DNA of 42,706 nt, from NCBI GenBank assembly GCA_021160245.1, contig JAGHCW010000034.1, forward strand, positions 1-42,706, given 5' to 3'. The stretch is from a bacterium. Lineage in GTDB: Bacteria; B130-G9. Shown piece after piece: positions 28,780 to 42,257 of the stretch; the first letter of the stretch is position 1, and every line of letters starts with the position of its first letter. A program made the translations under genes and the position numbers. Under the pieces are notes generated by a model. It saw only the letters and a program-made list of their open reading frames with translations. It did not search any database and was not told the origin of the DNA.

Positions 28780-29505
28780 ATGCCAGAGAATGACGGGACA
28801 TTATATATTGTTGCCACGCCGATCGGTAACCTAGGCGACATAAGTCACCGGGCTCTCGATGTGCTTTCGAAAGTGGGGGCGCTTGCCTGCGAGGACACTC
28901 GCATAACGTTGCGGATATTCCAGCGCTATGAGATCAAGAGGCCAAAGACGGTCTTCTCATGCCACGAGCATAACGAGAATCGCGTAGTCAATCGCATTAT
29001 GGGACTCTTAGAGTCCGGCGTCTCTGTTGCGCTCTGCACGGACGCCGGCGTCCCCGGAGTAAGCGATCCGGGCTATCTTGTGATGTCCACTGTCATTGCA
29101 AATGGCGGCGATGTCTTCGTGATTCCAGGTCCAAGCGCCGTCTCAACCGCGCTCCTGCTCTCTGGTCTGCCGATGAACACATATACATTCAAGGGATTTT
29201 CTCCACCCAAGCAGGGGAAAAGGGCCAAGTTCATCAACATGGAAGCGGAGTCTTCACATACACTTGTCTTTTTCGAATCGCCTCGGCGCGTCGGGCGCTT
29301 TTTGTCCGAGTCGCTTGAGATTCTTGGCAACCGGAGAGCCGCGGTCTGCATCGAGCTAACCAAGATGTTTGAGCAGATTCACCGGGGGACTCTGGAGGAA
29401 TTGGCGGCGCAATTTGCCGATAAGACCATCAAGGGCGAGGTGACAGTTGTCATTGAGGGTCTTGGTCGAAAGGCAAGGCGAGAGGCCAGCCATGCGGGCG
29501 AATAG
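28780..29505 (+). CDS. rsmI: 16S rRNA (cytidine-1402-2'-O)-methyltransferase RsmI
   Basis: 241 aa. TLYIVATPIGNLGDISHRALDVL is the RsmI N-terminal signature; ACEDTRITLRIFQRY, CTDAGVPGVSDPGY and VIPGPSAVSTALLLSG complete the tetrapyrrole-methylase-type fold. FESPRRVGRFL and CIELTKMFEQIHRGTL are also family landmarks. It methylates the ribose of C1402 in the decoding region of 16S rRNA. The protein ends near the point where longer homologues carry an extra C-terminal helix pair, so it is somewhat short. It is the first gene of a five-gene overlapping operon; tgt starts inside its last codons. Confidence 0.95.
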   Translation: MPENDGTLYIVATPIGNLGDISHRALDVLSKVGALACEDTRITLRIFQRYEIKRPKTVFSCHEHNENRVVNRIMGLLESGVSVALCTDAGVPGVSDPGYLVMSTVIANGGDVFVIPGPSAVSTALLLSGLPMNTYTFKGFSPPKQGKRAKFINMEAESSHTLVFFESPRRVGRFLSESLEILGNRRAAVCIELTKMFEQIHRGTLEELAAQFADKTIKGEVTVVIEGLGRKARREASHAGE

Positions 29506-30589
29506 CCTCGAGACTGCGCATGGAATCTTGCATTACCCGTGCTTTTTGCCGGACGCAACTCGTGGCGTTGTGAGGTCGGTGGGCTCGGGCGATATAGCCT
29601 CGATCGGCGTGTCGGGCCTCATGGTCAACGCGCTTCATCTCTCAAGAAGGCCCGGGACGTCCGTCTTGGCCCGCTCGGGTGGAGTTCATGGATTCATGGG
29701 GTGGGATCGTCCTATCTCATCGGATTCTGGCGGATACCAAATCCATTCACTGATCTCCGAGGACGCCAAGCTCGGCTCAGTCTCCGATAAGGGCTTTGTT
29801 TACAGATTCAGCAGAAGTGAAGAGAAGCGAATTGTAACACCAGAGAAATCCATCAAATATCAGTTCGAGATCGGCTCTGACATCATGTTCTGCCTCGATG
29901 TCTGCACGCATCCCGATGATGGCGACGAGGCGCAGCTTTTGGGCTGCAAACGGACGGTTGAATGGGCCAAAAGATGCAAGATAGAGTTTGCATCGCGAGT
30001 CTCTCGGCTTGCTGAGGGCACGGCCCGACCGCTGCTCTTCGCCGTAGTTCAGGGCGGCGCCTCATCCGAGCTGAGAAGAATGTGTGTTAGCGAGCTGATG
30101 AACATTGGCTTTGACGGCTACGGGTTTGGTGGATGGCCGATTGATGAGGATGGCGGCCTGGTCGATGCGGTTGGAGAAGTTGCAGGTCTTCTACCGAATG
30201 GCACACCAAAATTCGCGCTCGGTATCGGGAAACCTGAGAGTCTCGTGAGTGCCTATCTAGCTGGCTATGGCATGTTGGATTGCTCCATTCCAACGCGCGA
30301 CGCCCGCAGGAAGCGGATTTTCGTTTTCTCGGATAGACCTAAGCGGATTTCGTTCGACGATTCGACATTCTATCACTATATATACCTTCAGGATAAGAAG
30401 CACTTGGCAGATGCTGGGCCCCTAGATGAAACCTGCGATTGTCCGTGCTGCAGACGATTCTCAAAGGCCTATTTATATCACCTCTTCAAGCTGGAAGACC
30501 CGCTTGCCTATCGCCTCGCCACAATTCACAACCTGCGATTCATGGTTCGCCTGACAGATGAGCTCCGCCGACGGAGTATCGCGCCTTGA
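29492..30589 (+). CDS. tgt: Queuine tRNA-ribosyltransferase family protein
   Basis: About 365 aa from the ATG at 29492, preceded by GAGAGG at seven bases and overlapping rsmI by 14; a TTG/GTG-type start at 29447 would extend into rsmI. It exchanges guanine for a 7-deazaguanine at the tRNA wobble position. SDSGGYQ gives general-acid D78, VVQGG is the substrate loop and LDCSIPTRDAR the nucleophile D263. The zinc site is CDCPCC with a later histidine in AYLYHLF. It is divergent: the usual TRNAR is TRDAR, and the N-terminus lacks the conserved bacterial GT-x-PVFMPVGT form. Placed by context in the ribosome/tRNA-modification operon. Confidence 0.88.
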   Translation: MRANSLETAHGILHYPCFLPDATRGVVRSVGSGDIASIGVSGLMVNALHLSRRPGTSVLARSGGVHGFMGWDRPISSDSGGYQIHSLISEDAKLGSVSDKGFVYRFSRSEEKRIVTPEKSIKYQFEIGSDIMFCLDVCTHPDDGDEAQLLGCKRTVEWAKRCKIEFASRVSRLAEGTARPLLFAVVQGGASSELRRMCVSELMNIGFDGYGFGGWPIDEDGGLVDAVGEVAGLLPNGTPKFALGIGKPESLVSAYLAGYGMLDCSIPTRDARRKRIFVFSDRPKRISFDDSTFYHYIYLQDKKHLADAGPLDETCDCPCCRRFSKAYLYHLFKLEDPLAYRLATIHNLRFMVRLTDELRRRSIAP

Positions 30590-31404
30590 GTGACCACGAG
30601 GCGGATGTTATCGGCCGGATTGTCGATAAGCTCCTTGAATCGAGAAAATACCGCAATATCTTCCGCCCGGCGCTTGAGAATGTCGCTAGATGGGCTTCGA
30701 AGCGATACCCGAGGCAAAGGGAAGCCGAAAAGGCCGCAAAGCGAAAGCTGCATCACGTCTATGGGGCCTATATGACGTCCGGGCAGCTGGCTAGAGTTGA
30801 AGAACTCGTCAAGGGCATTGAGGCCGCCGAATGCCCCGATGAAAAGGCTGTTTGCAGAGAAGTTCTCAAATGCCACGCCTCAACATGGGAGCGACTCGGC
30901 CACATCAAAGACATGTATCGAGACATAGCGGAGATTATCGGTCAACCGCGCAGCGTGCTCGAGCTTGCGTGCGGGTTGAATCCATTCGCGCGGCCTTTCA
31001 TGGGACTTGCGCCGGATGCATCGTACCTTTGCATTGACATAGACTGTCGCCTCATCTCGCAAGTTAAGCGTTTTCTGGCTCGATTGCCCGGCCGGAACGA
31101 GGCGCGATGTGGCGCTATCCTGTTGTCAGTTCCTGCCGACGAATGCGATGTAGTCTTTCTGCTCAAGACATTGCCCTGCCTCGAGCGGCAAGAGGCGGGC
31201 GCGTCGCTTCGGATTCTTAAGGCGTTGAACGCAACGAACGTCGTGGTCACTTTTCCAAGAAGGTCCCTTTCCGGGCGTTGCCGCGGCATGGACGGGCATT
31301 ATATGGGGATAATGGGGGACTTAATCAACGAGCTCGGATGGGAAATGAGCGAGTTGCGTTATCCACTTGAGACGGTCTATGTTTTGAAAACTCGCGCAAG
31401 ATGA
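30586..31404 (+). CDS. 16S rRNA (guanine-1405-N7)-methyltransferase family protein (FmrO/Sgm/Rmt type)
   Basis: 272 aa. The pattern of the FmrO family is followed from end to end: ESRKYRNIF near the N-terminus; AKRKLHHVYGAYMT; CHASTWERLGHIKDMY; the SAM loop LELACGLNPFARPFM (about residues 125-140); YLCIDIDCRLISQVKRF; VVFLLKTLPCLERQEAGAS (about 190-208); VVTFPRRSLSGRCRGMDGHY (about 222-241). Members methylate N7 of G1405 in 16S rRNA helix 44 and give high resistance to gentamicin/kanamycin-type aminoglycosides, in producers and in acquired form. Here it lies in a housekeeping operon, TTGA-coupled to tgt (4-base overlap), with GGAG nine bases before its TTG. Enzyme activity and target are inferred from family only. 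Confidence 0.9.
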   Translation: MSDHEADVIGRIVDKLLESRKYRNIFRPALENVARWASKRYPRQREAEKAAKRKLHHVYGAYMTSGQLARVEELVKGIEAAECPDEKAVCREVLKCHASTWERLGHIKDMYRDIAEIIGQPRSVLELACGLNPFARPFMGLAPDASYLCIDIDCRLISQVKRFLARLPGRNEARCGAILLSVPADECDVVFLLKTLPCLERQEAGASLRILKALNATNVVVTFPRRSLSGRCRGMDGHYMGIMGDLINELGWEMSELRYPLETVYVLKTRAR

Positions 31405-31447
31405 GAGCACGATTCAGCCGAATGTTTTGCAGGATGGACGCGTTGGG

Positions 31448-31999
31448 ATGAGAATCACAATCCTTGATGGCGACCCAGAGGCTCTTAAGAGCAAGCTCGG
31501 GCAATATGTCGAGCAGCTACAGGTCCAACTCGCAGCGCGGGGGCATGAGGTGAGCTGCATTCATCTAAGGGAGCTGAGCTTCGGGCATTGCACCGGCTGC
31601 TTCGGATGCTGGGTCAAGACCCCAGGTGAGTGCGTCATAGATGACGATTTCCGAAACGTCTGCCGGGCATTTGTCAATTCAGACCTGGTCATTGCCGCAT
31701 CGCCCATAACGATGGGCTTCGTAAGCTCCTTGCTCAGAAGAGCGAACGAGAGACTTCTTCCGATACTCCATCCATATATTGCGTTCAAGAACGGTGAATG
31801 CCACCATATCGGCCGCTATGAGAGATACCCCAAGATCGGGCTGATACTTGCCAGGGATGATCAGACGGACGAGGAGGATATTGAGATAATAGAGGCTATC
31901 TATCGACGCAACGCGATCAACGTCAACACAGACCTTGTATTCACCGCTCTGACTGACGATCCTGTCGAGGAGACCTGCCGTGCAATTGACGGTCATTAA
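31448..31999 (+). CDS. NADPH-dependent FMN reductase/iron-sulfur flavoprotein-like protein
   Basis: About 183 aa from the ATG at 31448 (MRITILDGDPEAL). It has a flavodoxin-like fold: after the first strand and helix comes CTGCFGCWVKTPGECVIDDDF, the cysteine pattern of the ISF/FMN-reductase branch, then DLVIAASPITMGFVSSLLRR for FMN phosphate and isoalloxazine contacts. The first-strand phosphate loop is less typical (DGDPEALKS instead of GSPR). It overlaps the next, related gene by 20 bases. Probably a flavin-dependent electron-transfer protein; partner unknown. Confidence 0.8.
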   Translation: MRITILDGDPEALKSKLGQYVEQLQVQLAARGHEVSCIHLRELSFGHCTGCFGCWVKTPGECVIDDDFRNVCRAFVNSDLVIAASPITMGFVSSLLRRANERLLPILHPYIAFKNGECHHIGRYERYPKIGLILARDDQTDEEDIEIIEAIYRRNAINVNTDLVFTALTDDPVEETCRAIDGH

Positions 32000-32636
32000 C
32001 GGCTCTCCGCGAGGCGAGAGAAGCAATACAAAGATGCTCCTTGACCCATTTATCAAGGGCTTCCTTGAGACTGACGGCAATCATGTAGAGCTGATGTATC
32101 TCAAACAGATTGGGCGCCAGGATGAGTTTGCCGGCCGGTTTATCGATGCCGATGCCGTTTTCTTGGCGTTTCCGCTCTATGGGGATGCGACGCCCTCAAT
32201 TGTGACGAGCTACATTGAGCGACTTGCGCCTCATTGCTCCCGTGATGGCAACCCGGCTATCGGCTTCTTGGTGCAGAGCGGCTTTCCCGAGGCGATTCAT
32301 TCGATTTTCGTGATGCGTTATCTTGAGAAGCTGGCGAGGCGGCTGAATTGCCAGTATCTCGGCACAATCATCAAGGGAGGCGTGGAGGGCATCAAGCTGA
32401 AACCTCGCTTTATGGTTAGCGGCCTGCTTAAGAAGATGTATCGACTGGGACAGGGCTTCGGCAAGACGGGCAAGCTCAATCCGCGCATATTGCGGAGGAT
32501 GGCTAGACCTATGACTTTCAATTGGATTCGCAGGCTCTTCGCGAGGCTGGTAGTGATGCCGCTGGCACGCTCCTACGCATGGGACAAGGAGTTGCGGAAA
32601 AACGGCGCCTATGAAAATCGCTTCGACGCCCCATAG
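31980..32636 (+). CDS. Flavodoxin-fold NAD(P)H oxidoreductase-like protein
   Basis: 218 aa from a GTG with GAGGAG seven bases upstream. MQLTVINGSPRGERSNTKMLL is the canonical FMN phosphate loop. VFLAFPLYGDATPSIVTSYIERL is the second flavin contact, and GFLVQSGFPEAIHS the third strand. The last 60 residues are basic and helical (RRMARPMTFNWIRRLFARLV), possibly a nucleic-acid or membrane contact. It overlaps the preceding flavoprotein gene by 20 bases, and the two may function as a pair. It ends the rsmI operon; 90 bases separate it from the convergent dnaA, with no clear terminator. Confidence 0.82.
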   Translation: MQLTVINGSPRGERSNTKMLLDPFIKGFLETDGNHVELMYLKQIGRQDEFAGRFIDADAVFLAFPLYGDATPSIVTSYIERLAPHCSRDGNPAIGFLVQSGFPEAIHSIFVMRYLEKLARRLNCQYLGTIIKGGVEGIKLKPRFMVSGLLKKMYRLGQGFGKTGKLNPRILRRMARPMTFNWIRRLFARLVVMPLARSYAWDKELRKNGAYENRFDAP

Positions 32637-32726: not shown

Positions 32727-34109
32727 CTACATATCAAGATGACGTTGAATTGCGCTTTGCTGCCTCAGGGCGCCCAGTTCCCGCTTGAGCGTCTCGATAA
32801 GACAATGAAATGCTGGGTCCGCGATCATCTTTGCTCTTATCAACTTGTATGAGTGAATTACGGCGGCATGGCACATTCCGGAGAACTTCTTCCCGATTGA
32901 CGGATAAGAATCCCCGAGCATATCTCGGCTGAGGAACATCGCCACTTGCCTCGCTCGGACGATGCTTCTCGTCCTGTCGCGCGACACGAGCTTGGAAACA
33001 CCGATGCCGAAATATGATGCGACCTTGTCTTGTATTGCCTCGACTGTCAGCTCTTTCTTCCCTGATCCATTTCTGCCAAGCACGGCTTCTGCGATTTCGA
33101 GAGAAATGGGCGCCGTCTTGAGTTCGGAATAGCCCTTCAATTTCGTCAACATGCTCTCAAGCTGGCGAACGCTTGGGCATGACATCTCTGCAATATAGGT
33201 GGCAACTTCGTCCAGAAGCTCCATGTCGAGAAGCTCAGCCTTCTTCCTTAATATCCGAATCTTCATCCGGAACTCAGGAGGCGCAACGTCAATTACAAGT
33301 CCCGAGCTGAATCGCTCGATTAGTTTCGGCTTAACCGAAAAAAGCTCCTCCGGCAGCCGGTCACTGCTGATAACCACCTGGCGGCCTCTCTCCTGAAGCG
33401 CATTTATCGTATGAAAGAGCGCCTCCTGTGTGCTGGCCTTGCTCTGAACAAACTGGACATCGTCGATAAGCAGGACATCTTGCGTCCGATATCTTGCTCT
33501 AAAGCCGGCGGTCTGTTTCGTTGCTATCGACTCGAAGAACTCATTGGTGAAGTCCTCGGCCGTTTGATACAGAACCGAGAGCTCGCTGTGAGTCTTCCTC
33601 AGTGAGTTAGTTGTGGCGCATAGAAGATGCGTCTTACCTACACCGTGCTGGCCGTAAATATATAGCGGATTGAACTCACTCGCCGGCTGGCGAGCCACGC
33701 TCTGGCACGCTGAATAGGCAAACTCATTGCACTCTCCGGGGACAAAGCCATCAAACGCAAGGGCGAGGTTGCCGTTCGTTGGGTGTTGAGCAACAATCGC
33801 ACTCGGATGCTCAACCGCCCTCGAATGCCGAGAGCTCTTCTTCACAGGGACAACCAGCCTGGGCTTGTTTGCGTCCTGGACCTTGATCTCAACAGTCACT
33901 TCTCGGTTGCACGCGGCAGACGCTGCGACACGTATATAAGAAAGATAGTTGGCCATTACCCAGTCTCTATGGGAATCTGAGCCTACCGAGAGATGCAAGA
34001 CGCCTTTTTTATATCCCTCGCAGTTCATGCTACTTATCCAAGTCTGAAAGCTCTGCTTGTTGATCATTCGCTTTGCGCGCCTAAGGGTGCGACTCCAGAC
34101 ATCATTCAT
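32727..34109 (-). CDS. dnaA: DnaA replication initiator with altered DNA-recognition motif
   Basis: 460 aa from the ATG at 34109 (GGGAG ten bases upstream; an in-frame TTG at 34136 is less likely). Domain I: VWSRTLRRAKRMINKQSFQTW. AAA+ core: FNPLYIYGQHGVGKTHLL with K159, Walker B VLLIDDVQFV, sensor region VVISSDRLPEEL and IERFSSGLVIDVAPPEFRMK. Domain IV: VRARQVAMFLSRDMLGDSYPSIG is normal, including the arginine of the first recognition helix, but the signature normally read GGRDHTTVLHA is SGMCHAAVIHS (residues 410-420). The aspartate and both threonines that contact the DnaA box are replaced by C413, A415 and A416; only H414 remains. It initiates replication or is a divergent paralogue. Confidence 0.9.
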   Translation of the reverse strand: MNDVWSRTLRRAKRMINKQSFQTWISSMNCEGYKKGVLHLSVGSDSHRDWVMANYLSYIRVAASAACNREVTVEIKVQDANKPRLVVPVKKSSRHSRAVEHPSAIVAQHPTNGNLALAFDGFVPGECNEFAYSACQSVARQPASEFNPLYIYGQHGVGKTHLLCATTNSLRKTHSELSVLYQTAEDFTNEFFESIATKQTAGFRARYRTQDVLLIDDVQFVQSKASTQEALFHTINALQERGRQVVISSDRLPEELFSVKPKLIERFSSGLVIDVAPPEFRMKIRILRKKAELLDMELLDEVATYIAEMSCPSVRQLESMLTKLKGYSELKTAPISLEIAEAVLGRNGSGKKELTVEAIQDKVASYFGIGVSKLVSRDRTRSIVRARQVAMFLSRDMLGDSYPSIGKKFSGMCHAAVIHSYKLIRAKMIADPAFHCLIETLKRELGALRQQSAIQRHLDM

Positions 34110-34488
34110 TCTGACATGCTCCCACCCTATGCCCAAAAGGCAACCTCTGCGTCAAAGAAACCATTTGAAAACCTAACTGCGAGAAGTTCATTACCAACAC
34201 GACTAAAGGGGACACAACCCGGGAGATTTAGAAACCAACCCGGAAGAATAGGCCAACAAAAAGCAAAGGAAAACACCCTATATTGCTGATATGGGGCGAA
34301 ACATGAGCATGTTCCGACCCGCTTTCTCGAGCACTTGTTCTCATCATAATCACGATAATAACTTATGAAACGAGTCGGGATTGGTCAAGGGAATCACTTG
34401 AGAAATTTTACTAGCTTCTCTATACGACAAGGATCGATTTGTGTCATTGCAACATATTTGGTATTAGTGATCTGCCCAACAAGACTTT
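34110..34488. other. 379-bp divergent region between dnaA and the next gene
   Basis: AT-rich in its centre (34230-34480). No cluster of TTATCCACA-type boxes was found on either strand. On the minus strand TTGACC is followed after 17 bases by the weak TAAGTT, a possible dnaA promoter. The region would be a natural place for an origin next to dnaA, but nothing in it proves that. Confidence 0.4.
34398..34426 (+). promoter_or_regulatory. Putative promoter TTGAGA-N17-TATACG
   Basis: TTGAGA (34398-34403, 5 of 6) and TATACG (34421-34426, 4 of 6) are exactly 17 bases apart. Initiation near 34433 would give a 56-base leader to the two-TM protein gene at 34489. Confidence 0.5.
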
Positions 34489-38970: not shown

Positions 38971-41900
38971 CTATTCACTCGGCGTTATAGGTATCTTGAA
39001 CAATGCTGGCCGGCAATTGTGCCTCGTGGCAACAATCCTTATATGGCCCGATTGAACATCATACAAACCCGGCATTTTCACTAGACCATTCTCGTCCGTC
39101 ATCCCGACCCAAGACCGATTCCATTGCCAATTCTTGCCATCATTTTTCCTGTACCCTTGAGAAAATGTAACAATAGCATAGGGAGCACCATCGTATTCAT
39201 TCTCATTGTATACTGCATTCTCGCCCATTGTGACATATATATCCTGTTCATAGGCAAGGTCTTCCGGATGATGGTAGTCGGTGGGAACCGGATCTATATG
39301 CAAATACAAGGGATATTTAGTCCTAATGTCCAAAGCCGAATCGCCAATCCACATCTGCTGGTTTGCCAATTGGCCTGTCCATTGATATCCCCATTCGTTC
39401 CAGGGCTTTTCGTTGCTCCCCGGTTGCATCGATTTGAATCTATAATCCATTACGTAATACCATGTGATGGCGCCAAGCCTTATCTGCCAATGATCACAGT
39501 CTGGGCCCGGCCAGATGGCCTCTATAAGGCGTCGATAGCAGCTCTGCCAGATGAACGCAGCCACGCCGCCGTGGCCATACCATGCTACGGCACCTCCCGA
39601 ATCGGGCTCTTCATAGCGCCGGCCGACCGTCATCTCACTGATCGGGCACCCGAATACTTCCGCGCGATCATTGAATGCGTTCACATCCCTAGGCAAATAA
39701 CACTCCTCCGCGCTGTAATGATCATAGCAATCGCAGGGGTCGCCGGAGGGATAATCCCAGACGCCGATGTCGCGCCAATGGCACACCCAATGACCCCACC
39801 AGACGCCATTCTTGTCCACCCAATCTCCGATTTCGTCACCGGTGCCGACCTGCTTCATTGCTCCCGTAAGGCAGAACATGCCGAATACAACGGGGGTTTT
39901 ATAACCATTGCGCAGAATCTCATCCTCCTCAGCGTCCTTTCCGAGTATATACTTGTCCGTGGTGAAATCCTCGCCACATATATAGTAGCACTCTCTATGT
40001 GTCCCATCGGCAATTGGATCACCACAGGGACAACCCAGATTCTCGCCATGCCTTTCAAAAGAAGATTTTAGACACCAAACACATCCAGGAGTCTTCGCAG
40101 CATTGATTCGATTCCAACATGGAAACATGCACTTCTGACCATGCGTCACCCAGAACATCACGCCAAGTCCGTCGGTCCAGCCGTTTACTCTATAGTCCAT
40201 TAATGTGCATGTAGTCGGGATTCCATCAGCGCTGTTAAATTCCTTCCAGAAGTAGGGGTATTGATAACTTGGACCCGGGTCCCGACCGTTGATGACAGCC
40301 GAATTGCCCATCGACGCATCTTCGGGGAAATCATCGCCGTCGTTCATCCCGTCGAACTCGTGTTCGCCATTGATGATCGTGGCGTCGGCAGGGGAACTGT
40401 CGAGGCCATCTATCATCTCCCACATCTTGTATGCGAGCGTTATGTATTTCCACCATTCCCACCTTTTCTTCTGCTCATATTCTGTGGTGGCAGTGCCGGG
40501 TATCATATCGCCGCCCTTGAAACCGACTATATTGACCTTCTCCAACCAGTGCCGGCCCTGCAGTGGTTTCGCATCGGTGGCATAGCGTATAGTGCCCCAA
40601 TTCTCATCGCTTGTGAAATCATTCTGTTGATAGACTGCATAACCCAACGAGCGCAGTGCGACCTGGGTCACCTCGTCGTTGCCTTCATCCGCATCCTCGC
40701 CACTTTGCCCGGTGATCCTCGACACCATGACATCCATGCCAGGGGCGCCGGACAATCCGAATGAATAACCGGAATCCCCCTGATACCAGGTATCAAGTCC
40801 ATCACCCCAGTAGTAGTAGCCAGCCCTCCCAGGCAGATCATCCCAATCATACCATGAGACAAATCGGGAAGAGACGCTTATGTTGCCATTGCAGTCCGGT
40901 CCGGAGACGATTGTGCTGCTGCTTCCGGGGCTGTCAACATCTCCAACGAGAAGCACAAAGAGAGTTGGTTCATTGGCATAGCAGGTTTGTATCTGATTGC
41001 GTATCCAGTCCCGCTGCGCGTGTCTGGCCGCCCTGTCGTTCTCATAGCCTGCCTGACTGAGCTTCGGGAGAGTTGACGGCGTTATCGTGAAATCTCTCTC
41101 AGCAATTATTCGCTTCGTTCGAAGGCCCTCGAAATCGTGCCAATCCAGCAGATTGTGGAGCGCCTCGTTGTTCCAATAATCCTCAGCGATTATGGCAAGG
41201 AGGCGCGTGCCCTCAGGAAGCGTGGATTCAAGGTCGAGTGATTCGTAATTCATTATCGCTTCTTCTAGGTAGCCGGCGAGCATTGCGTCAACTTCCTGCG
41301 GAGCGCTATCGAGTGTATTGATTGTGCTGATCGAGCCATAGGATAACGTGACAGTTATTGAATTATACGCCGTGACTGTCGCGTCTGTTGGGTTGAATTG
41401 AACCGGCAGAACATCGAGGTGAACGCATCGTATCCCCCCATGTATCACGGGCTTGGAAATCGCGGCGCAGACACCGGGGAAATCATCATCTACTGCATAT
41501 ATGACCTCGTCCTTCAGGAACTCCAGGGGCCGCAAGTGCATAAACGAGTCCGTCTGCTGAGCAGGCATGGCCATAACCTCACTCTCCGTCGTTGCGCCCG
41601 TCGCCTCAATAGTGATTATCACATCTCTCTCGTGATTCACAGCCAAAATAAGAGGGATGATCGGCAGACTGGGGCGCCCCGGATACATGGTCATTTCTGC
41701 GCCTTTTATCGCCACCCAATGAAATAGCTGGGAGCTTGCAGTTGCCGGAGATATTTGGACGGTGTTTATCGTGGCCTGTATCACAACGGACACAGTGCTG
41801 GAGGTAACCATGTTAATCTCAAACCATTGAGTTGACTCGGTTGCGCCGCCGCCACTGAACAGAATAGGCGCGTCGATGATCTGAGCCTTTGGCGTTGGCT

Positions 41901-42089
41901 GAGCGGGACGCTCCTTGTGCTTTCCTAGGAGGATCGTTCTGCTGCGATGTGCCTTGCCGGACCACACGCGATTATCGCCCCCCCCCCGCCAGAGTCGGCG
42001 TATGCGAGGGACGATGACCAGACTAGAAGACAGGCAAAGATAGTGATGCAGATAAGACAATTCAGTTTCCATAGATGCGCTCTTGACAT
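38971..42089 (-). CDS. C25 (gingipain)-like secreted peptidase, frame broken by a G10 tract
   Basis: The ATG at 42089 has TGGAGAG six bases upstream and encodes a signal peptide (MSRAHLWKLN, then LICITIFACLLVWSSSLAYA-DSGG). A run of ten G (41978-41987) then shifts the frame and the peptide stops at 41925. The remaining 1000 residues are open in the adjacent frame down to 38971. Eleven or eight G would join the two. The body has C25 landmarks: FVLLVGDVDSPGS, GMDVMVSRITG, the catalytic-His region FWVTHGQ, FGMFCLTG for the catalytic Cys, and GGAVAWYGHGG. His and Cys are 90 residues apart and separated by a cysteine-rich insert, further apart than in gingipains. The last 90 residues are a beta-sandwich (ENGLVKMPGLYDV). 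Most likely a phase-variable or frameshifted surface protease. Confidence 0.82.
41978..41987 (-). repeat. Homopolymeric G10 tract just after a signal peptide
   Basis: On the coding strand GGC is followed by ten G and then CGATAAT. The tract falls at codons about 35-38 of the C25-like gene, right behind the signal-peptidase site. With ten G the product ends after 54 residues; with eleven or eight it continues for more than 1000. Confidence 0.85.
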
Positions 42090-42257
42090 AATGTACTCTC
42101 CAGATTTGCTCAAGAATAACGAATGACAAGCAGGACAAATCGCCGCGAATGTAGTGGCGGGCAAAGCGGCGGCGTATTTGCTCGCCCGCGTCACAAAGGC
42201 CGGTTCAGTCGCATCCAGTTTCCCCCTGAAATTGCAGAGCTACGTTCTCAAGAAAGA

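Follow-up and report, generated by a model that had tools for sequence, protein, structure and literature searches.

A divergent tRNA-guanine transglycosylase paralog paired with an FmrO-family methyltransferase in a probable chromosomal operon for modification of the ribosomal decoding centre

The window analyzed here is a stretch of 42,706 nucleotides (contig JAGHCW010000034.1 of assembly GCA_021160245.1) from a bacterium of the B130-G9 lineage, in which three overlapping genes encode the 16S rRNA methyltransferase RsmI, a tRNA-guanine transglycosylase (TGT) homolog and an FmrO-family homolog of the Rmt-type aminoglycoside resistance methyltransferases. This locus is probably a chromosomal operon for modification of the ribosomal decoding centre, rsmI-tgt2-fmrO, of the type from which several acquired Rmt enzymes were most likely mobilized. 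The tgt gene adjoining fmrO is a divergent, FmrO-specific paralog, the second Tgt of the genome, which we denote Tgt2. The initial annotation spoke of a housekeeping rsmI-tgt operon; this description holds for rsmI, which is present in a single copy in the genome, but has to be abandoned for tgt.

The canonical Tgt of the window genome is encoded on another contig (G000:C113:434-1492) and scores 498.7 bits with the TGT model, compared to 291.8 bits for the window copy. The latter also falls under the cut-off of the NCBIfam model TIGR00430 (Q_tRNA_tgt; 278.4 bits vs 306.75), and the Tgt2 of the Anaerolineaceae genome UBA1415 is just over it (308.3 bits). Canonical Tgt and Tgt2 are both present in seven further genomes (G002, G048, G080, G289, G351, G386 and G391), whereas G001 and G003, relatives of the window genome without FmrO, encode the canonical Tgt only. 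In G323 (97% complete, 170 contigs), only Tgt2 was found; its congeners have both proteins, and the missing canonical gene is possibly an assembly gap. In the phylogenetic tree, 14 Tgt2 sequences, chromosomal as well as plasmid-borne, are separated from 48 canonical Tgts by one branch with an approximate likelihood ratio (SH-aLRT) support of 100.

Like the Tgts of Zymomonas mobilis and Escherichia coli, Tgt2 retains in the alignment the catalytic Asp102, Asp156 and Asp280, Gln203, the PTR..R loop and the zinc ligands, and it shares their fold: the structure model is confident (predicted local distance difference test, pLDDT, of 90) and its best match in the PDB is the Z. mobilis TGT, with a template modelling (TM) score of about 0.87. 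The difference from these enzymes lies in the signature GFGG[W/Y]P, where Leu231-Ala232 is replaced by Trp/Tyr-Pro in all 12 aligned Tgt2 sequences, the proline being invariant. In Z. mobilis Tgt, the peptide at Leu231/Ala232 can flip, offering its NH to guanine in one orientation and its carbonyl to preQ1 in the other, and the Ala232Ser substitution lowers turnover about 100-fold (PMC3660597). Because proline cannot offer the NH, Tgt2 should read its base in a different way. An insertion in the C-terminal part of Tgt2, before the zinc site, was also considered as evidence of a new substrate and was rejected, given that some canonical Tgts of candidate phyla share it. One TGT paralog with DNA as its substrate, DpdA, sets a precedent for the acquisition of a new nucleic-acid substrate in this group. 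Bacterial Tgt resembles Tgt2 much more than DpdA does: the DpdA model NF041059 does not match the window Tgt2 at an E-value of 0.001 and gives 29.7 bits with the UBA1415 Tgt2, against a cut-off of 200. In the literature consulted, mainly that openly accessible, we found no paper in which this tgt is treated as a separate paralog or the chromosomal operon is recognized, although a tgt gene next to rmtD may have been noted earlier.

The link between Tgt2 and FmrO is nearly exclusive. A Tgt2 profile searched over 386 genomes detected seven of them at 565-633 bits, the next matches being canonical Tgts with at most 342 bits, and fmrO is directly adjacent to tgt2 in all seven, which span four phyla. 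FmrO scores over the cut-off in nine of the 386 genomes, namely these seven, G258 and G065, so that Tgt2 is present in seven of the nine; Fisher's exact test for the counts 7/0/2/377 yields about 1e-13 when the relatedness of the genomes is ignored. A scan with a Tgt pattern, which also caught canonical Tgts, contained Tgt2 among the matches listed only at two loci, in UBA1415 (L026) and in the Firmicutes genome ADurb.Bin153 (L027); these add further Tgt2-FmrO pairs and extend the pairing to six phylum-level lineages. The survey of gene neighborhoods that the initial annotation had called for thus shows tgt2-fmrO recurring on chromosomes of all these lineages, usually next to rsmI. The evolutionary distances of the two proteins are strongly correlated (Mantel r of 0.89, with none of 10,000 permutations as high; 0.77 with one representative per lineage). 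The complete genome G065, which also encodes a canonical Tgt, contains a very distant FmrO-like gene (55 bits) adjoining a very distant TGT-like gene (140 bits; L119:5320-7303). The FmrO-like protein keeps 10 of the 20 residues that are invariant in the established resistance enzymes (see below), and this pair might represent a separate but related two-gene system.

The rsmI gene adjoins tgt2-fmrO in the window and in G002, G048, G323, G386, G080, G351 and ADurb.Bin153, both as rsmI-tgt2-fmrO and as tgt2-fmrO-rsmI, and this change of order indicates that the association is not merely one inherited arrangement. In all three genomes tested (G000, which is the window genome, G002 and G048), the rsmI beside the pair encodes the only RsmI; the possibility that the window gene is a second copy was accordingly rejected, its product being the sole RsmI match in the whole genome. 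The most elaborate cluster is that of UBA1415 (L026:7168-12897), where rsmI, tgt2 and fmrO are followed by a second fmrO and an rsmF-like gene, with a convergent rsmE-like gene and a second rsmI nearby. The RsmF and RsmE homologs score under the strict equivalog cut-offs, yet these families are their best matches. Of the 20 invariant residues, the second FmrO of this cluster keeps only 15, and its target may differ. All partners with a known target act on the decoding centre of 16S rRNA (C1402, G1405, C1407 and U1498), and this guilt by association is the main argument for Tgt2 working there.

The window FmrO scores 159.6 bits with the Pfam family PF07091 (curated cut-off 27), and the three FmrO-family motifs quoted in the initial annotation are all found in the protein. 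Among solved structures, its sequence best matches that of Sgm (3lcu; 6.7e-41), and RmtF, RmtC, RmtB and ArmA are matched as well. The structure model of the window protein is weak (mean pLDDT 65), and the residue alignment was relied on instead, even though Foldseek ranks Sgm 3lcu (E-value 2.6e-16), RmtC, RmtF, RmtB and ArmA first. For this comparison, we used the 20 positions that are invariant in RmtB, RmtC, RmtD, RmtE, RmtF, RmtG, ArmA and Sgm, all with established resistance activity. The window FmrO keeps 19 of these, so that the loss of residues contacting S-adenosylmethionine (SAM) or rRNA, which would have spoken against the assignment, is not observed in this test of invariance, as distinct from a contact map. 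The 16S rRNA was sought in 15 genomes and found in three; it is absent from the assembly of the window genome, and that of G001, from the same family, has the usual decoding-site sequence with G1405. The window FmrO is predicted from its sequence to methylate N7 of G1405, which would render the cell intrinsically insensitive to 4,6-disubstituted deoxystreptamines, that is, drugs of the gentamicin and kanamycin types. The predicted m7G1405 might serve either normal decoding or intrinsic aminoglycoside resistance.

Remnants of the same operon surround several plasmid-borne rmt genes. Among the plasmid neighborhoods examined (rmtB2, rmtD, rmtE2, rmtG, rmtC, rmtF and armA; rmtA and rmtH were left out), tgt2 is located upstream of rmtD1 and rmtD2 (18 bases), both of which also keep rsmH fragments (37.8 and 224 bits), a truncated tgt2 precedes rmtE2, and tgt2 is found upstream of rmtB2 with a metallophosphoesterase gene in between. 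The latter gene, of the calcineurin-like type, occupies L129:5146-5955 on a Providencia rettgeri plasmid. No tgt2 was detected near rmtC, rmtF or armA on the plasmids examined. The closest parallel to the window is the rmtG operon, for example on pKP13f, in which a full rsmH precedes tgt2 and an N-terminal fragment of RsmI (PF00590, 5.1e-9) follows rmtG; a review places rmtG in an operon with "rsmH, tgt, and rsmL" (PMC9311965). The gene families, the order of tgt2 and rmt and the short overlaps are the same, and the Tgt2 of this operon is 45% identical to the window copy. The rmtG operon, however, is mobile and part of a resistance region with IS91-type elements on its flanks, whereas in the chromosomal window operon, rsmI is whole and located upstream. 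A direction from operon to plasmid is suggested by the flanking genes being truncated on plasmids and the operons being whole on chromosomes, and most likely the acquired RmtB, RmtD, RmtE and RmtG were mobilized from such chromosomal operons, keeping tgt2 and remnants of rsmH or rsmI. The native origin of such resistance enzymes that the initial annotation had suggested, along with the native chromosomal context, is well supported by the recurrence of this operon type in six phylum-level lineages, the separate clade described next and the remnants at four plasmid Rmt types.

In the FmrO tree, the window protein and that of G002 form a clade of their own (support 100/99), apart from the clade of RmtB, RmtD, RmtF and RmtG (99/99), with weakly supported deeper branches. 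This separation rules out that the gene came from a resistance plasmid in recent times, and the direction of older transfers lies beyond the resolution of this tree. Identity to the compared plasmid Rmts is at most about 37%, and all 1592 plasmid matches of the window FmrO are under 60% identical; with no mobile genes and no near identity to known alleles, the gene does not behave as a mobile resistance determinant. Between congeners, the ratio of nonsynonymous to synonymous substitution rates (dN/dS) is 0.13-0.15 for fmrO, 0.07-0.09 for tgt2 and 0.08-0.11 for rsmI, so that all three genes are maintained by purifying selection.

The features of the operon are collected in Table 1. The open reading frames and overlaps given in the initial annotation were reproduced from the window sequence: tgt2 starts 14 bases inside the end of rsmI, and the TTG start codon of fmrO at 30586, within TTGA, overlaps the tgt2 stop by 4 bases. 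The three genes are probably transcribed and translated together. The operon and the rest of the window have the same GC content (54%), and the contig is chromosome-like, encoding recA, dnaA, a YchF-type gene and 2-oxoacid oxidoreductase genes. The other open reading frames of the window that were scanned with Pfam include neither a transposase nor an integrase, in agreement with the earlier remark that no mobile element is near.

Table 1. Features of the rsmI-tgt2-fmrO operon in the window
Feature	Position	Strand	Evidence
rsmI, 16S rRNA (cytidine(1402)-2'-O)-methyltransferase	28780..29505	+	TIGR00096, 185.7 bits (cut-off 167.9)
tgt2, divergent tRNA-guanine-transglycosylase paralog	29492..30589	+	PF01702, 6.2e-87; starts with ATG at 29492
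Tgt2 signature codons G-G-W-P	30128..30139	+	Alignment with Z. mobilis 229-232; canonical GGLA/GGLS
fmrO, Rmt-type 16S rRNA (guanine(1405)-N7)-methyltransferase homologue	30586..31404	+	PF07091, 1.3e-46

Several other genes of the window were observed in passing. Two overlapping flavodoxin/FMN-reductase-like genes (31427-32636) lie immediately 3' of fmrO and were not seen beside fmrO at other loci. The dnaA gene (32727-34136, minus strand) is located about 1.3 kb downstream of fmrO, and a replication origin may be near. A 1055-amino-acid protein encoded at 38971-42138 has a match to the propeptide of C25 (gingipain-type) peptidases.

In the mechanism that we propose for this operon, RsmI would place a 2'-O-methyl group on C1402 and FmrO would methylate G1405, as discussed above; more speculatively, Tgt2 would exchange a 16S rRNA guanine of that region. 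It has been reported that ArmA prevents RsmI from acting at C1402 and that Sgm and RmtC do the same to RsmF at C1407 (PMC12406665). Given the effect of ArmA, the coupling of fmrO with rsmI may keep the methylation of C1402 in step, and the same might apply to C1407 in UBA1415, where RsmF is added. By analogy with its partners, the leading guess for the target of Tgt2 is a guanine of the 16S decoding centre. That Tgt2 is an rRNA-directed transglycosylase placing a 7-deazaguanine-type base there, as part of a set with RsmI, RsmH, RsmF and FmrO, is put forward tentatively.

It is also possible, if doubtful, that Tgt2 works on tRNA, as a second transglycosylase of the queuosine type that targets the wobble G34 or another tRNA guanine and would tune decoding or aminoglycoside tolerance together with an FmrO that still makes m7G1405. 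The conserved catalytic residues, PTR..R loop and zinc site and the superposition on Z. mobilis TGT are compatible with this role, and in Vibrio cholerae, the tolerance of aminoglycosides is influenced by Tgt and queuosine (PMC11703503). However, the same genomes already contain a canonical Tgt, the Leu231/Ala232 switch by which guanine N7 or preQ1 is read (PMC3660597) requires an NH that the invariant proline lacks, and the partners of known target modify 16S rRNA. More intimate cooperation can be imagined, in which N7 methylation by FmrO turns the base into a good leaving group that Tgt2 then exchanges or removes, as an eraser or in a two-step modification. The nearly obligate pairing of Tgt2 fits this scheme, and so does Pro232, which eliminates the NH reading guanine N7 and would be consistent with a base carrying a blocked N7. 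We nevertheless regard this scheme, a pure inference, as very improbable. Plasmid Rmts act without needing Tgt2, no tgt2 being found near rmtC, rmtF and armA on the plasmids examined, and no TGT is known to act on m7G.

The alternatives for FmrO itself appear weak in the light of the tree and the residue comparison. A recently acquired resistance gene that landed behind tgt by chance would account for the resemblance of FmrO to acquired resistance genes and for the patchy distribution, but is highly unlikely considering the low identity to plasmid Rmts, the separate clade, the native GC content without a mobile element, and the occurrence of the pair in six phylum-level lineages with tgt as a specific partner rather than a random neighbor. 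The tgt2-fmrO cassette as a whole may have been transferred horizontally long ago. A shift of the window FmrO to another guanine or another RNA might be suggested by its divergence, its score with the Rmt_gen model and the substitution of D126 (both given below), and by the drift of some relatives, such as the second UBA1415 copy and the G065 protein; with 19 of the 20 invariant residues kept and RsmI, which acts on C1402, as its partner, such a shift seems unlikely.

The interpretation of the locus as a native decoding-centre modification operon has to accommodate several observations that weigh against it. The window FmrO scores 220.3 bits with the NCBIfam model NF000466 (Rmt_gen), under the curated cut-off of 250, so that membership of the family is beyond doubt but naming as an equivalog does not follow automatically, and its sole exception among the invariant residues is a conservative change of D126 to E. 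The fmrO gene evolves faster than its neighbors (dN/dS of 0.13-0.34 vs 0.06-0.17). The rsmI gene is not beside the pair in G289 and G391, where tgt2-fmrO stands alone in the sequence seen, or on the rmtB2 plasmid, and G258 encodes a lone FmrO (L114:6210-7013; 16 of the 20 invariant residues) with neither tgt2 nor rsmI nearby. The operon is also patchy, being present in two of the four genomes examined from the window family (it is absent from G001 and G003, the two examined genomes of a sister genus) and, in three other phyla, in 3/3, 2/7 and 2/3 genomes. This patchiness argues against the built-in G1405 modification proposed in the initial annotation being essential, and is more readily reconciled with an accessory intrinsic trait than with one that is universal.

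Compared to Sgm, RmtB-G and ArmA, the window FmrO belongs to the same family and, judging from its weak model, may have the same fold, but is encoded together with Tgt2 and RsmI, whereas these enzymes are products of stand-alone resistance or producer genes. Discussions of where the acquired 16S rRNA methyltransferases of Gram-negative pathogens come from usually centre on antibiotic-producing actinomycetes. The plasmid remnants at rmtB2, rmtD, rmtE2 and rmtG, together with the intact chromosomal operons, make a different source testable by gene neighborhood. The present analysis also defines a second clade of bacterial TGT, set apart by its own branch and its position as a second genome copy, that hardly ever occurs apart from a ribosome methyltransferase. 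Activity of Tgt2 on rRNA would extend transglycosylation to a new class of RNA, and G1405 methylation would then make up half of a native modification by two enzymes, the half that was later torn out as a resistance gene.

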